In this document: positions 17,724 through 34,438 of the stretch, piece after piece | Layout: each line of letters begins with the position of its first letter | Numbering within the stretch: the stretch's first letter is position 1 | NCBI GenBank assembly: GCA_024278445.1 | Contig: JAJRTC010000254.1 | Coordinates: forward strand, 1 to 34,915 | Source: Nitrospirota bacterium | GTDB lineage: Bacteria; Nitrospinota_A; UBA7883; JAJRTC01 | Direction: 5' to 3' | Length of the DNA: 34,915 nucleotides | The notes under the pieces: model-generated | Told to the model about the DNA's origin: nothing | What the model saw: only the letters and a program-made list of their open reading frames with translations | Databases searched by the model: none | Made by a program: the position numbers and the translations under genes

Positions 17724-17729
17724 AAGATT

Positions 17730-17896
17730 CCTCCCCCTTAAGGGGGGAGGTCAGGTGGGGGTGGATGATTTATTTATACACCCTCCCCTTGATCCCCTCC
17801 CCTCGAGGGAGGGGAAAGGTGCGGCGCCTATGTCACCCTAAGGGAGAGAAGAAGCGGGTCTTTATATCTCTATACCCCCTTGTGAGCACACAAGGG
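17730..17896. repeat. Cluster of GC-rich palindromic repeats in the pyrC-carA intergenic region
   Basis: CCTCCCCCTTAAGGGGGGAGG (17730-17750), CCCCTCCCCTCGAGGGAGGGG (17794-17814), CCCTTGTG-AGCA-CACAAGGG (17877-17896). Confidence 0.8.
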
Positions 17897-17937
17897 AGGG
17901 AAAGAGTACCCGCAAATATAGGCGCGAAAGGAAGTAA

Positions 17938-19056
17938 ATGAAAAAAGCGTATCTTGTTATGTCTGACGGGCGCGTGTTCACCGGCAAGCCGTTGGGCGCA
18001 GTTGGCGAGACATCTGGCGAAGTCGTGTTCAACACTTCCATGATGGGATATCAGGAGATCCTCACAGACCCTTCATACGAAGGGCAGATTATCACCATGA
18101 CCTATCCGCTCATAGGCAATTATGGTGTGAACGACGAGGACGTCGAGTCGTGCGATATTTTCGCCGCAGGTTTTATAGTTAAAGAAGAGAGCGCCATAGC
18201 ATCAAACTGGCGCAAAACAAAAACGCTGGGCGACTATTTGCGCGAGCATGACGTTGTTGGCATACAGGGGATAGACACGAGAGCGTTGACCCGTCACATA
18301 CGCGAAAAAGGTGCGTTACCTGCGATTATAATTTCTTTGCCCGATGCCGATATAGATGAGCTAAAAGCACGCGTAACAAAAGTTGCGGGAACAGACGGCA
18401 TTGACCTTGTGTCGAAAGTCACATGCGATGGGGCATATAGCTGGGACGACGGACTGTGGGATATTGAGCAAGGGTTTACCAAACCTGATAGTGAATCAAA
18501 ATATAAAGTTGTGGCGATTGATTATGGCGTGAAGCGAAATATCCTGCGCCATCTTGTAAACGCCGGGTGTGATCTTACTGTTGTTCCGGCAAGCATGACG
18601 GCTGACGAGATATTAAAAAAGCAACCGGACGGAATTTTCCTCTCCAACGGGCCTGGTGATCCATCGGCTGTTCCATACGCCGCAGAAACCGTAAAAGAGT
18701 TGATAGGCAAAAAACCTTTGTTCGGAATCTGTTTCGGGCATCAGACGTTGTGCCGTGCGCTTGGCATGGATACTTATAAATTAAAGTTCGGGCATCATGG
18801 CGGCAACCAGCCGGTTATGGATCTTTTAACCCGCAAGGTAGAGATAACCGCGCAGAACCATAACTACGCGGTGGACGACAAGTCCCTGCCGGACGGCGTA
18901 GAAGTTACGCACATAAATTTGAACGATAAAACCGTTGAAGGCATAAAGTCTGACAAGTTAAAAGTGTTTTCGGTGCAATACCATCCGGAAGCCTCCCCCG
19001 GCCCCAACGATGCGCAATATTTGTTCAAACGGTTTACCGATTTGATGGAGGGATGA
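17938..19056 (+). CDS. carA: Carbamoyl-phosphate synthase small subunit
   Basis: [58 protein letters not shown] motifs. Confidence 0.96.
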
Positions 19057-19079: not shown

Positions 19080-19505
19080 ATGACCGATATAAACCTAACA
19101 CAAACTGAAGCTGATACTTTAATTTCAATGCCAAAATTGCGTGTTAATGATGATACTTGGGATTATCCAAACTCTGGCGGGTCTTTATGTGTGCCGCTTG
19201 TGTCACAGGACAATAGAGAGGAGTTCAACCTTGATATTTATAGAGGGCGTATTAATTTGCTTAAAGGTACGCACCAGAGTAGGGCAAGGCAAGTTATTGT
19301 GCTAGTGCGGTTAGATTTTGGAGGTTCTCCTCACCGTAATCCAAATGATGAAGAAATAGGAAGCCCACATTTGCATATTTATCGTGAGGGATATGGTCAT
19401 AAATGGGCTATCCCCGTTCCTGAAGATAAATTCCCCAATATTTCTGATTTATATGCAACGTTATTAAGCCACCTAAAATTTTTAGGGGCCTTTTCTCATG
19501 ATTGA
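19080..19505 (+). CDS. DUF6978-family protein, function unknown
   Basis: Recognised pattern [48 protein letters not shown]-rich; stop overlaps the start of the next gene. Confidence 0.8.
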
Positions 19506-20265
19506 TGAAATACAAAAATTACTAGATCAATATGTTTTATGGCTTAAGGATAAGACATTGCTACGGGAGATGCCTGACAATTGGGTGGAGATTACGACCC
19601 CTTACCTTGATCGACATAATGACTATCTCCAGATATACACCAAGAAGCAAAATAGAACATTTGTGCTTACTGACGATGGCTACATTATGGATGATCTTTT
19701 GCAAGCTGGGTGCAAACTAGATACTCCAAAGCGTAAAGATTTGCTGAAAATGACTTTAGCAGGGTTTGGTATCGATAATAATAACGGGGCTTTAGAAGTT
19801 CGTGCTTCTGCTGAAAGTTTCGCATTGCGTAAACATAATTTAATTCAGGCTATGCTAGCAGTTAATGACTTGTTTTATCTGGCACAGCCAATGGTTGCTA
19901 GTCTTTTTTATGAAGATATAGTTCAGTGGCTTGATCAAAATGATATTCGTTATACACAAAATGTGAAGTTTGCTGGCAAGAGTGGTTACGATCATTTATT
20001 TGATTTTGTTATTACCAAATATCAGCAACATCCTGAGCGCATCATTAAAGCAATTACTAACCCAAGTAGGAATACAGCAGAAGCCCTTGCATTTAAGTGG
20101 ATTGACACTAGAGATGTAAGGCCATCGGACTCACGAGCATATGCACTGCTTAATGACAAGGAACAAAGAGTGCCTTCAAGTGTATTTGATGCTATAAAAA
20201 ACTACGGTATTACACCTGTGTTGTGGAGTAGCCGCGAAAATGTTAAAGCAGAGTTAGCTGCCTAA
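19498..20265 (+). CDS. DUF1828/DUF1829 domain protein, function unknown
   Basis: [47 protein letters not shown] and [15 protein letters not shown]; 8-nt overlap (ATGATTGA) with the upstream gene. Confidence 0.82.
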
Positions 20266-20309: not shown

Positions 20310-23300
20310 ATGCCGAAACGAACTGACATAAAAAAAATTCTTGTTATTGGTGCGGGGCCTATCGTCATCGGGCAGGCGTGCGAGTTTGACTATTCCGGCA
20401 CGCAGGCCGTGAAGGCGCTAAAAGAGGAGGGGTATGAGGTCTGCCTTGTAAACTCAAACCCAGCCACAATCATGACAGACCCCGACATGGCCGACCGCAC
20501 ATACATCGAGCCGATAACACCGTCAGCGGTGGAGAAAATAATAGAGCGTGAAAAGCCGGACGCGGTTCTGCCGACGGTTGGCGGGCAGACGGCGTTGAAC
20601 GTGACCGTTGCGTTAGCCGAAGCCGGTGTTTTTGAAAAACATGGCGTAGAGCTTATCGGCGCAAAACTCGACGCGATAAAAAAGGCGGAAGACCGTGACC
20701 TGTTCAAAAAGGCGATGGCGTCCATCGGGCTAAAAACGCCGGAGTCGCGCCTTGCGCACAACATGGAAGAAGCGCTCGATGCGTTAGACATCGTTGGCCT
20801 TCCGGCGATTATACGCCCTGCGTTTACATTGGGCGGCGCAGGCGGAAGTTTTGCCGCAAGCGAGGCGGAATATGAAGAGAGCGTGAGAACCGGCCTTGCC
20901 ATGAGCCCCGTGTCGCAAGTGTTAATAGAGCGCTCCATCGCAGGCTGGAAAGAGTTTGAGTTAGAAGTCATGCGCGACATGAAAGACAACGTGGTCATAG
21001 TCTGCTCGATAGAAAATTTCGATCCGTTAGGAATTCATACGGGCGACTCTATAACCGTTGCGCCGGCGCAAACGTTGACCGACCGTGAATATCAGATCAT
21101 GCGTGACGCGGCGATAGCCATTATCCGGGAGATTGGTGTGGACACGGGCGGGTCTAACATACAGTTTGCCGTGAACCCTGAAAACGGCGAGCTTGTGATA
21201 ATAGAAATGAATCCGCGTGTATCGCGTTCATCGGCGTTAGCGTCTAAGGCTACAGGTTTTCCGATAGCTAAGATCGCCGCTAAGCTTGCCGTCGGTTATT
21301 CGCTGGACGAGATACCTAACGACATAACCCGCATGACGCCGGCATCTTTTGAGCCGACGATTGATTATTGCGTTGTGAAGATACCACGGTTCGCGTTTGA
21401 AAAGTTTCCAAAAGCCGAAGACGTTTTAGGTGCGCAGATGAAATCTGTTGGCGAGGTGATGAGCATTGGCCGCACGTTCAAGGAGTCGCTACAAAAAGCG
21501 ATACGCTCGCTTGAGACGGGCTATTTCGGTTTTAAAAATAAAGACAGCGCTACAAACGAGCAGATAGAGAAAGTGTTAAAAGTGCCGTCGTCGAAAAGGT
21601 TTCCATACCTTGGCGAAGCGTTAAGGCGCGGTTGGACAATTGAACGCGTGCATCAGGCTACAAAAATAGACGCATGGTTTTTGCACAACATGAAACAGAT
21701 TATCGATACCGAAATGGAAGTTATTAACGAGGGGCTTGGCGACGACGACCGCTTGCGCGAGCTAAAGGAACTTGGTTTTTCCGACAGGCGCCTTGCAAAG
21801 CTTGCGGGCGTAACAGAAAAAGATATACGGGCAAGAAGGTTAAAGGCAGGCGTCGTTCCGGTATATAAAAGGGTAGACACATGTGCAGGTGAGTTTGAGG
21901 CATACACTCCCTATCTTTATTCGACATACGAAGAAGAGTGCGAGGCCGATGTGTCCGATAAAAAGAAGATAATAATTTTAGGCGGCGGGCCGAACAGAAT
22001 CGGGCAGGGGATAGAGTTTGACTACTGTTGCGTCCACGGTGTTATGGGGTTGAAGAAGGATGGCTATGAAACCATCATGGTCAACTGTAATCCGGAAACT
22101 GTCTCAACCGATTACGATACTTCAGACAGATTATACTTTGAGCCGCTGACGTTTGAAGATGTGATGTCTATCATAGACCGTGAAAAACCGGACGGGATAA
22201 TAGTGCAGTTCGGTGGGCAGACGCCGTTGAACCTCGCAAAGGCGCTAAAGGAAGCGGGTGCGCCGATTATCGGCACAAGCCCGGAAGCTATAGACCGCGC
22301 AGAAGACCGCGAAAGTTTCAAGGCGATGTTGGAGAAACTTGATTTAAAACAGCCGCCAAACGGGATCGCCACAAACACGGTCGAAGCTCTTGCCATAGCA
22401 AAAGAGATATCCTATCCGGTTGTTGTGCGCCCTTCATATGTTTTAGGCGGACGGGCGATGGAGATAGTTTACGATGACGATGCGTTAAAGTTTTACATGG
22501 CAAACGCCGTGCAGGCGTCGCCAGATAAACCAATTCTTATCGACAAGTTTTTGAATTCCGCGATAGAGCTTGACGTAGACGCGGTTTCAGATGGCAAGAC
22601 GGTTGTAATTGGCGGCGTGATGGAACATATAGAGGAGGCGGGTGTACATTCTGGCGACTCGGCCTGTTCACTTCCGCCGCGTAGCGTAAGCGTCGAACTT
22701 GTTGAGGAAGTAAAACGCCAAACCAAAATGTTGGCGGTAGAACTTGAAACCGTGGGGCTTATAAACATACAGTTTGCCATACAGGATAACGAGATTTTTA
22801 TTTTGGAAGTAAACCCCAGGGCTTCGCGTACTGTTCCTTTTGTTTCCAAAACAATAGGCAAACCGCTGGCGCAGATCGCGGCGCGTGTTATGGCTGGCAA
22901 AACGTTAGCTGAGTTGGGTTTCACCGAGGAAATAAAATTCAGCCATGTTGCCGTTAAGGAAGCTGTCTTCCCGTTTATAAAGTTTCCTAATGTAGATACG
23001 ATCCTTGGGCCTGAGATGAAATCGACAGGCGAAGTTATGGGGCTTGCCCGCTCGTTCGGGATGTCGTTTGCAAAAGCGTCTAGCGCCGCCGGGGTTGAGC
23101 TCCCGTTGTTTGGCGCGGTTTTTGTTTCTGTAACAGATTCTGATAAGAAAATGGCGGTGACAGCCGGAAGGCGTCTCGCTGATATGGGGTTTTCATTGCT
23201 TGCCACAAGTGGAACGGCGGCCGCGTTGAAAGGTGCCGGGCTTGCCGTTGAGGTGTTAGCCAAAGTCGGCGAAGGAACCCCGACATGTGTAGACAGGTTG

Positions 23301-23516
23301 GCCGATGGCGATATTGTTATGGTTATCAATACGACCTTCGGCAAAAAGTCTATTCAGGATTCTTACACTATAAGAAGAACGGCGCTTACGATGAACGTGC
23401 CATACCAGACCACCGTCGAAGGTGCCTTGGCGTCGGTTACGGCGATAGAGGCACTTGTTAAAGGCGGAATGGATATCATGGCGTTGCAGGAATATTTTAC
23501 GATGGTAAAGTCGTAG
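20310..23516 (+). CDS. carB: Carbamoyl-phosphate synthase large subunit
   Basis: 1068 aa with duplicated ATP-grasp halves: [14 protein letters not shown] and [14 protein letters not shown]-terminal MGS-like domain. Confidence 0.97.
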
Positions 23517-23622
23517 GTTAATCAAAACGCCGTATGGATGTTTGTGCAAATAGAACTTGCATCGATCGCTCTTATAATGGGTGTTATTGGCCTTAATCCT
23601 GGTGAAAGGTTGTACCGGTAAA

Positions 23623-25116
23623 ATGAACCTGACCTGCGTTGCGCGATTTTTATTTGCCGTCCTGTTTACGTTCTGTGTTCTGCTTCCAAACGCATATGCC
23701 GAAACTCCTTCATGGTTTGGAAGGCAATACGAAACACTGCTTTCTGAAACGTGGATGAATGTATCCTTTGGTAAAAACAAAATCGGCTTTTCGCATCAGA
23801 AAATCGAAAAAGGAAAAGATGGATATCGCATAACGTCGCGGGCCGTTATACGCCTTAACGTTATGGGCATTACGCAGGATATGTCGTTTTCAAGGTCTTA
23901 TCATCTCGATAACAAAAAGGATGTTTTGGGCTTTATCTCCCTTATGAAAATAGATAACCAGCGTCAACTAACAGTCGGCACGATAGACGGAAATGTTTTA
24001 AAACTATCAATTAAAGGGGCGGGCGGCTCAAACGACGTAACTAAAAAATTGCCGGATGGGGTAGATTTTGCTGAAACGTTTTCATTTAAACTGGCCGATC
24101 AACTAAAAGTCGGCATGCGTTTAACCGTTCCTGTTTACATGGTGGAATTGCGAACCTTTGCTCCGATGACGCTAAACGTTATTGGTAAAAAGAAAATAAA
24201 ATCTGCTGGGGGCGAAGTTGAGGTTTTTGTTATAGATGTCGCCATGCAGGGGTTTACAAGCAAAAGTTATGTGACGCAAGATGGAGTTACTGTGCGAGAA
24301 GAGCAGAGCATGATGGGCATGGTGTCTGAAGTGGTAGACGAGGCGACGGCGTTATATTTCCCGAAAGGTTCCGCCGTTCCGGTGTCGAGCCTCATCACGT
24401 TTAGCCTTGTCAAGCCGGATAAGCCGATACCCTCTGCCGGATCCTTAAAAGAATTGAACCTTGTGATAGGCGGCATTAAAAACCCTTCCGCCATTCCGGA
24501 GGATGACAGGCAACGGGTTGGAGCGGCCAAGTGGGTGCAAGACGCAAAAGGTGGGCGGAGTTTAAGTTTGGCAGTAACTATTCAGCGCAGGGTTCCACAA
24601 GGTAAAATTTCGATAAAGGAAGCGTCTGCTCTTATGCCCGATGGGTTACGGCCCACGCCTGAGATACAGTCTGGCAACAAGATGATAAAAAAACAGGCGC
24701 TTAAGATTATCGGTGGAGAAACAGACGCCTTTGAGGCGGCAAAAAAAATAAGGCGCTGGGTTTTTGAGAATCTGAAAAAAGAATTGTCAGATTCAATCAC
24801 CGCCGTGGATGTTTTACGTTCAAGGAAGGGGGAGTGCCAAAGCCACACTAACCTTTTTACAGCGTTGGCGAAAAGCGTTGGCATACCAACCAGAACCGCG
24901 TCGGGAATAGTCTATTCTCGTGCTAACGACGGTTTTTTATATCACGCATGGCCCGAAGTTTACATTTCAGAATGGATTCCGATGGACCCGACGTTGGGGC
25001 AGGATGTTGCGGATGTGACACATTTAAAACTTGCCCAGGGTGGTGTGGAGAGCCAGCTTAAACTTATCAGCTTTATAGGCAAAATCACTGTTTCCGTCCG
25101 CTCGTTTAGGAAGTAA
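23623..25116 (+). CDS. Transglutaminase-like domain protein, predicted exported
   Basis: Signal peptide MNLTCVARFLFAVLFTFCVLLPNAYA; SRKGECQSHTNLFTALAKSVGIPTRTASGIVY (Cys), YHAWPEVYISEWIPMDPTLGQ (His/Asp). The track ORF starts upstream at 23581. Confidence 0.88.
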   Translation: MNLTCVARFLFAVLFTFCVLLPNAYAETPSWFGRQYETLLSETWMNVSFGKNKIGFSHQKIEKGKDGYRITSRAVIRLNVMGITQDMSFSRSYHLDNKKDVLGFISLMKIDNQRQLTVGTIDGNVLKLSIKGAGGSNDVTKKLPDGVDFAETFSFKLADQLKVGMRLTVPVYMVELRTFAPMTLNVIGKKKIKSAGGEVEVFVIDVAMQGFTSKSYVTQDGVTVREEQSMMGMVSEVVDEATALYFPKGSAVPVSSLITFSLVKPDKPIPSAGSLKELNLVIGGIKNPSAIPEDDRQRVGAAKWVQDAKGGRSLSLAVTIQRRVPQGKISIKEASALMPDGLRPTPEIQSGNKMIKKQALKIIGGETDAFEAAKKIRRWVFENLKKELSDSITAVDVLRSRKGECQSHTNLFTALAKSVGIPTRTASGIVYSRANDGFLYHAWPEVYISEWIPMDPTLGQDVADVTHLKLAQGGVESQLKLISFIGKITVSVRSFRK

Positions 25117-32827: not shown

Positions 32828-34438
32828 ATGAGTCTTTACATACTAGATAACCACTATTCATTTTTGCCAGATCATAGCTCAACCTATACTTTTGCAGGTG
32901 CAGATGGTCATGTGAAATGGCCCATGAAAAATGGAGCTGGTTTGGGGGTTGCCGGTACATGGAATTGCCTTTGGCGACTTGGCTATCATCCTCTTCTTGT
33001 TTCACCAGATCAACTGCCATCACCAACTCGTGATGATGTTCTATTCGTATATTTAGAAGGTTTTTTACTATCGAAAGGGCAATTAGCAGTCAATAGATGG
33101 CTTAGTGATGGAGGACGAGTTGTTTCTTCTGGCGATGCTTTATCATGGGGTGAGGTTTTTCCAGGGTCTGCTGTTAGTGAACAGGAAACCATAGACCATC
33201 CGTATCACGCGTTAGCCTTTAAATTTAATGAAGAGAATCTACCTAAGCTTATCGCTCCTCCTAAATGGCGTTATGCATTATTACGTTCGAATAAAGCCCG
33301 TGATTTTGAAACTATAGGGGCACTTTATGCGGTTGGAGGTGAACGTCAAACTCCATCTCGTGCAGATATTCAGCAAATTAATAATGGAGTGGCCATTATT
33401 AAGAAAGGCGGGCATTGGCATCTTAACGGAAATCCATTTGCCGCTTTTCAAGCATGGTTGCAGGGCCAGGAAAATATAAATACATGGTTCAATTGGTACC
33501 ATCGAATTTTTTGGTTAGATGAATATGTAGCATATTTAGGGAAAATTCTTATTCGATATGGCTCTATTCCTTCATCCACTCCGCGCCCGGGCATTCCTGG
33601 GTTGGGTTCAACAACATTAATTTTCAAACATGATCTCGACCTGTCCCGTGACACGTCCTGTCTGTCACTTGAAAATAAAATGAATATAGCTGGAGTTCAC
33701 CCCATTCTGATTGATCGCAATTCTAAATTTTGGGTTGATATGCTTAAAGAAAATCCATGCCATGAAGCGGCCTTTCATTACAATTCTATTAAGGGTAACA
33801 AACTCTCAAAGCTGTGGCGGTATATTTTTAATAAGCCCTTTCCTGCTTATAAACCGAATTTAAATGCAATATCAGGGGTTGGCCTGCTCAACCAAGTGCG
33901 GAAAGCTCAGAATAGAGGAATCGGAATACAAACTTTACATAAGCATGGGTCGTTTATTATTTACCCTGAACTGATAGATGCCTTAAATAAAGTCTATCAG
34001 GCAAGTAGCGAGACTCTTGGTGGGTCAAGTTTTTCCAGAGCAGAGATTTTGCGTTGGGGTATTGACAGAGTAGAAAATGTAAAAGGTTCTATCGGTGAGT
34101 GGCCTGATACCCAGTGTCCGTTGTGGTATCCATTTAAGCTAGCTCATGCAGGGCATAATGGAAAAATGCTATGTGGGTGGGAGATGACGTCTTTGATGGA
34201 GACAGAACCGCTCTTGTTCGAACAGATGCTAGATTACCAGATAGATGGAATCGAACAACGCATTATAACTATAAACTATCACCCGTATCATGCTACTGCT
34301 AAAACATTTGCGGAGGATGGGTGTCTACCATGGTTAAAGCGCAATATAGAGATAATGCAGGATAGGGGGGTCTTGGCGATGACTATGGCTGAGCTATTTA
34401 TGAAAATAAACGCACTTTCTCAGCATCAGAATGTGTAA
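32828..34438 (+). CDS. Hypothetical protein with possible polysaccharide-deacetylase-like C-terminal domain
   Basis: 536-aa ORF; FKHDLDLSRDTS resembles the metal-site HDxD of deacetylase-like folds; late GCLPWLKRNIEIMQDRGVLAMTMAEL; N-terminal region looks GATase-like (YLEGFLLSKGQLAVNRWLSDGGRVVSSGDAL). Confidence 0.55.
   Translation: MSLYILDNHYSFLPDHSSTYTFAGADGHVKWPMKNGAGLGVAGTWNCLWRLGYHPLLVSPDQLPSPTRDDVLFVYLEGFLLSKGQLAVNRWLSDGGRVVSSGDALSWGEVFPGSAVSEQETIDHPYHALAFKFNEENLPKLIAPPKWRYALLRSNKARDFETIGALYAVGGERQTPSRADIQQINNGVAIIKKGGHWHLNGNPFAAFQAWLQGQENINTWFNWYHRIFWLDEYVAYLGKILIRYGSIPSSTPRPGIPGLGSTTLIFKHDLDLSRDTSCLSLENKMNIAGVHPILIDRNSKFWVDMLKENPCHEAAFHYNSIKGNKLSKLWRYIFNKPFPAYKPNLNAISGVGLLNQVRKAQNRGIGIQTLHKHGSFIIYPELIDALNKVYQASSETLGGSSFSRAEILRWGIDRVENVKGSIGEWPDTQCPLWYPFKLAHAGHNGKMLCGWEMTSLMETEPLLFEQMLDYQIDGIEQRIITINYHPYHATAKTFAEDGCLPWLKRNIEIMQDRGVLAMTMAELFMKINALSQHQNV

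Follow-up and report, generated by a model that had tools for sequence, protein, structure and literature searches.

A candidate toxin-antitoxin pair of the PDC-M24 family between carA and carB, with a frameshift in the putative toxin gene

Introduction

The closest catalogued relative of the gene pair described here is PDC-M24, a two-protein system (PDC-M24A and PDC-M24B) listed by PADLOC; no paper on its function was found in the literature searched. The DUF1829 domain found in the larger protein of the pair is also present in DS-6B of the DefensePredictor study, a DUF3037-DUF1829 protein that partners the HipA kinase in the phage-defence system HipAD (PMC13092281). In a retron study, deleting the DUF3037 gene of the PADLOC system PDC-M66 was toxic, and the HipA gene was required for defence (PMC12548924). 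For the smaller protein the nearest described toxins are those of the TumE group (DUF6516), which block translation in E. coli and are neutralised by TumA (PMC10584680). As for the location, Pseudomonas aeruginosa and Xanthomonas citri are also reported to have an unrelated open reading frame separating carA from carB (PMC4619228).

Here we describe two genes, A and B, lying between carA and carB in a stretch of DNA of 34,915 nucleotides, analysed at full length and referred to as the window. We interpret the pair as a mobile, translationally coupled module of the toxin-antitoxin type belonging to the candidate defence family PDC-M24, with A as the toxin, B as the antitoxin and the local copy of A probably disarmed; we assign this reading a probability of roughly 0.55. 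The main new fact is that gene A of the window is frameshifted by a 28-nt deletion.

Results

The gene pair and its setting

The features on which the analysis is based are the following.

17938..19056, forward strand: carA, carbamoyl-phosphate synthase small subunit, upstream flank (open reading frame; homologues upstream of carB in relatives)
19080..19505, forward strand: gene A, DUF6978 / PDC-M24A, candidate toxin, 141 aa (Pfam, PADLOC, frameshift analysis)
19308..19376, forward strand: conserved motif of A (R77, D79, H85, N87, H97, H99), candidate active site (conservation in members)
19451..19501, forward strand: remnant of the normal C-terminus of A, 16 residues plus stop, in another frame (mean score 35.3 to relatives)
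19498..19505, forward strand: A/B overlap of 8 nt, ATGATTGA; the old overlap of the original stop of A with the ATG of B is 19498-19501 (4 nt in relatives)
19498..20265, forward strand: gene B, DUF1828 + DUF1829 / PDC-M24B, candidate antitoxin, intact, 255 aa (Pfam, PADLOC, own-genome search)
19597-19863, forward strand: DUF1828 domain of gene B (Pfam)
19975-20235, forward strand: DUF1829 domain of gene B (Pfam)
20310..23516, forward strand: carB, carbamoyl-phosphate synthase large subunit, downstream flank (open reading frame; homologues in 12 of 12 genomes of the order)

Both open reading frames were recovered at exactly the coordinates given in a preliminary description of this DNA, and the domain families and AT-rich composition that it had suggested are borne out by the Pfam E-values and GC3 measurements below. 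Gene A matches DUF6978 (PF22398, 1e-40), with no other Pfam family listed by hmmscan, and gene B matches DUF1828 (PF08861, 2e-27) followed by DUF1829 (PF08862, 5e-32). Searches of the pair against NCBIfam, and of its proteins against the PDB by sequence and by profile, gave no match. The genes are adjacent, co-oriented and overlapping, as in the layout of type II toxin-antitoxin loci. The GC content is 0.394 for A and 0.382 for B; their GC3 values, 0.296 and 0.316, are the two lowest among the 27 genes of the window, the other 25 having a mean of 0.488 (SD 0.049).

In PADLOC, A corresponds to PDC-M24A (PDLC04538, E 2.4e-49, residues 5-134 of 141) and B to PDC-M24B (PDLC04539, E 4.3e-104, residues 4-255 of 255). 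The matches cover almost the full length of both proteins, and the two genes lie next to each other on one strand in the order listed for the family. The pair had been put forward as an undescribed system, but PADLOC already lists it as a phage-defence candidate. It differs from the listed family, itself only a candidate, in the frameshifted C-terminus of A: in the window B is intact and A is without its normal end, and the pair is still homologous to the PDC-M24 family, probably as a degenerate member of it.

With gene names taken from a reading of the sequences, the pyrimidine operon of the window has the order pyrR-pyrB-pyrC-carA-[A-B]-carB-(transglutaminase-like)-pyrK-pyrD, with spacers of 23 nt from carA to A and 44 nt from B to carB. 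The transglutaminase-like protein has 511 aa and is encoded at 23581-25116, in the carB-pyrK interval. The pyrC-carA spacer (17724-17937) contains CCCTCCCC-type repeats and a short palindrome; similar-looking translated stretches of the PSPRGRG type are present in the spacer upstream of carB in the order relative G006. No RNA element was detected in an Rfam scan of the window.

A frameshift in gene A

Gene A, FRAMESHIFTED here, follows its native frame only up to about position 19463 and is out of frame beyond it. In close relatives, the tail of A reads, for example, FCNIVEPPIIERGLFI before a TGA stop, in most cases with a 4-nt overlap (ATGA) with the ATG of B. This tail, as 16 residues and their stop, can be recognised in another frame in the window: against eight relatives the remnant has a mean BLOSUM62 score of 35.3, while 20,000 shuffles of the same DNA score at most 15.0 and the stretch read in the own frame of A scores -22.6. 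The stretch that separates the old stop from the last shared motif is 38 nt long in the window, as against 66 in four relatives and 63 in two. This comparison of sequences identifies an out-of-frame deletion of 28 nt, which takes out the C-terminal helix region of A; R77, D79, H85, N87, H97 and H99 are intact, as is all of B.

As a result of the deletion, A reads past its old stop (19499-19501) to a TGA at 19503-19505, making the 8-nt overlap with B a by-product. The tight overlap reported previously is thus present but is not the native junction, and the pair in the window is not intact as had been supposed. The frameshift presumably inactivates A. Since the deletion removed the helix region and displaced the tail, what remains here is probably a toxin that has been disarmed, next to an antitoxin that is intact.

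Pairing and defence neighbours in other genomes

In a survey of 384 genomes, DUF6978 was found at 15 places in 14 genomes, and at all 15 a DUF1828 gene adjoins it, with contig ends cutting the pair in G006 and G339. Using HMMs, DUF6978 was matched by 20 of 20 aligned A proteins and DUF1828 by 24 of 24 aligned B proteins. Pairwise distances among A proteins correlate with those among B proteins (r = 0.945 over 19 pairs; 0 of 9999 permutations). All eleven phage records examined encode an A-type protein upstream of B, recognised by HMM or by the HxN...HxH motif; Javan642, Javan197 and Javan249 retain just the first half of this motif, with R and N replacing the later His residues. A-type proteins with the full motif are encoded by two archaeal replicons, a Halorubrum virus and a Haloarcula plasmid.

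The defence neighbours are listed locus by locus. The pair lies between HsdS and HsdR in G322; after HsdM/HsdS and an Old/GajA-like ATPase, and before HsdR, in G326; between HmaB and HmaC in G172; beside an EcoRI-type methylase and a GmrSD/HNH protein in G026; and beside a ResIII helicase in G107. The window differs from the Type I restriction-modification and Hma loci in having no gene of either kind next to the pair, which is itself a subunit of neither system.

Horizontal acquisition and the carA-carB site

The pair is carried on an IncP plasmid and on an Acetobacter plasmid. Nine temperate or satellite phages, and two staphylococcal plasmids of prophage-like type, carry the pair between regulator and integrase, or near the integrase. 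For B, the window copy shares 69% identity with that of G330 and 67% with that of G339, two genomes outside the window's class whose carB is 66% and 65% identical to that of the window; for the order-mate G006 the corresponding values are only 63-65% for B and 73% for carB. This contrast fits horizontal transfer.

In the sequence seen of the order relatives, the carA-carB site is always without the pair, and from this absence we conclude that the pair was horizontally acquired. The gap between carA and carB is 3 nt in G002 and about 0.12 kb in G003. Some relatives contain further genes at this site, in addition to the conserved one described below: an Mrr restriction endonuclease and a YgiT-finger protein in G006, a DUF4258-YgiT pair of the toxin-antitoxin type in G010 and a GIY-YIG protein in G009 (L046 2744-5221, L053 2431-3638 and L052 3543-5242). 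Given this varied cargo, the interval between carA and carB is a hotspot for insertions in this order, and defence or toxin-antitoxin genes figure prominently in it. The pair would have landed in it oriented with the pyr operon, the 28-nt deletion following later.

The preliminary description had proposed a horizontally acquired mobile module of the toxin-antitoxin or defence type. This proposal is upheld by the absence of the pair from the site in relatives, the low GC3 of both genes and the occurrence of adjacent pairs in restriction-modification, Hma, plasmid and prophage settings; none of the counter-checks set out in that description (conservation of the pair at the site across the clade, rare co-occurrence elsewhere, no compositional difference) speaks against it.

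A conserved gene of 206-222 aa occupies the gap in seven order relatives (L018 784-1404, L019 835-1500, L020 841-1470, L022 4724-5353, L024 851-1501, L046 2744-3391 and L053 2970-3638). A Pfam scan of two of the encoded proteins gave no match above the cut-off, and a search of the window's genome, run without a positive control, found no homologue. With no Pfam relation and no homologue found in that genome, this gene was rejected as a forerunner of the pair.

Candidate active site of A and comparison with TumE

Among 17 diverse A members, H85, N87, H97 and H99 are invariant; in a wider set H85 remains invariant and R77, H97 and H99 are conserved in at least 90%. A would thus be a small protein with an H-x-N...H-x-H site. 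TumE-TumA is likewise a two-gene pair, with a small toxin that contains R-x-D...H...H-x-H, a pattern also present in A, followed by a C-terminal helix (PF20126, DUF6516; PMC10584680). DUF6978 differs in being longer and in having an HxNP element, and comparison of B, with its DUF1828-DUF1829 architecture, against TumE gave no sign of a relation (hhalign, 0.3%).

Comparison of A with a 14-sequence TumE alignment by hhalign gave 81% (P 1.2e-5) and 58%, and other alignments gave 5 to 35%; no similarity was found to the profile of a short TumE subgroup. That subgroup aside, all 60 shuffles scored lower than the observed comparison in three of the four settings and one shuffle scored higher in the fourth; in a separate run all 300 shuffles scored lower. 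The PF20126 HMM did not match A at E up to 0.1, nor did it match anything in the window's genome. The TumE fold is alpha+beta, with two helices on a seven-stranded sheet; a single-sequence model of A had a pLDDT of 37 and was unusable. We treat this weak profile similarity as a lead and not as membership. As a toxin, A would probably act on nucleic acid or translation, as do the possibly distantly related TumE toxins.

B as putative antitoxin

That B may be a neutraliser is suggested by analogy with the DUF3037-DUF1829 partner of HipA. HipAD (DS-6, PDC-M66) is likewise a two-gene module, in which the partner reportedly carries DUF1829 and its gene is required to avert toxicity (PMC13092281, PMC12548924). 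Their toxin, however, is a kinase and not DUF6978, and the N-terminal domain of the partner is DUF3037 instead of DUF1828; A matches DUF6978 only and no kinase gene adjoins the pair. A PDC-M66-type pair, encoding a HipA_2 kinase and a DUF3037 protein, is present in G047 (L156 692-2304); in this one M66B homologue a relation to DUF1829 was not detected. As an antitoxin, B would bind A, and it may also bind DNA.

Two Rickettsia plasmids encode a short DUF1828-only protein (L118 2450-2824, L119 2480-2824) and have no A gene. The gene follows one for a DnaA N-terminal domain and, in one of the plasmids, precedes an AAA ATPase gene. This arrangement is a different use of the DUF1828 domain.

One-sided decay

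Damage to A is not confined to the window. There is an in-frame stop in G339 and a frameshift in both G266 and G009, and A is absent in G330; in phage UPMK_1 a stop interrupts A, and L. intestinalis has B alone. B is intact at all of these loci, with the start of the G339 copy on another contig; G330 has a second, degraded B fragment in addition to its intact main copy. At 17 genome loci, the window included, there are five lesions or losses of A and no case of a main B copy being hit. Were lesions distributed according to gene length (about 147 versus 255 codons), all five would be in A with a chance near 0.007 by our own arithmetic, although the count is small and some loci were located via B. 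Because of this way of finding them, the decay evidence is suggestive only, but a pair that had lost its toxin and kept the antidote would look like this.

Discussion

On the toxin-antitoxin reading, with B as the neutraliser, A would be released when the cell is infected or the element is lost; growth would stop and the population or the element would be protected. More broadly, and at slightly less than even odds, PDC-M24 could be an unrecognised toxin-antitoxin superfamily in phage defence, combining a TumE-related, His-rich toxin with a large DUF1828-DUF1829 antitoxin, distributed over bacteria, haloarchaea, temperate phages and restriction-modification operons, and with natural copies disarmed by breakage of the toxin only.

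Several other explanations have to be weighed. A and B may constitute a defence system without toxin neutralisation, either as a sensor-effector complex or as an accessory of restriction-modification or Hma systems, with neither protein toxic alone. The repeated placement in Type I restriction-modification operons and between HmaB and HmaC speaks for this, as does the PADLOC category, which is that of a defence candidate and not of a toxin-antitoxin system. We nevertheless regard it as unlikely: the pair is found by itself, too, on plasmids, in temperate phages and in the window, and repeated loss of A only is unexpected if both proteins are needed and neither is harmful. The roles might also be reversed, with the smaller, upstream A as the antitoxin and B as the toxic or effector protein. 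In type II toxin-antitoxin loci, an antitoxin-first order and a smaller antitoxin are common, and the order of A and B, smaller gene first, matches many such pairs. A toxic B would not easily allow the several loci at which B is present without an intact A; together with the conserved, catalytic-looking residues of A, and with the neutralising role of the DUF3037 partner of HipA in a related-looking system (PMC12548924), this makes the reversal improbable.

It is also improbable, to a similar degree, that the frameshift is an assembly or sequencing error and that the organism itself has an intact pair. With 269 contigs and 87% completeness the genome is a draft, which would allow for errors, but a deletion of 28 nt relative to the closest relatives is unlike a one-base homopolymer slip, and A has independent lesions in other genomes. 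That the two genes are native to the pyrimidine operon, with a metabolic or regulatory role in CarA-CarB function, would explain their common strand, short spacers and position within it. This we rejected as very nearly untenable on synteny and composition: the order relatives examined have no pair at the site, the GC3 values are the lowest of the window, and homologues elsewhere adjoin restriction-modification genes, integrases and plasmid genes.

Under the toxin-antitoxin reading, likely roles can be assigned to both proteins of PDC-M24, one of many PADLOC candidates, candidate catalytic residues can be named and a link to a known toxin superfamily can be proposed. The one-sided decay predicts which of the two genes is toxic, so a simple expression test would be decisive. 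A hotspot inside carAB is a place that a search confined to defence islands could miss. Elsewhere in the window, a gene of 536 aa (32828-34438) has a GC3 of 0.335, the third lowest after the pair, and may also be foreign.
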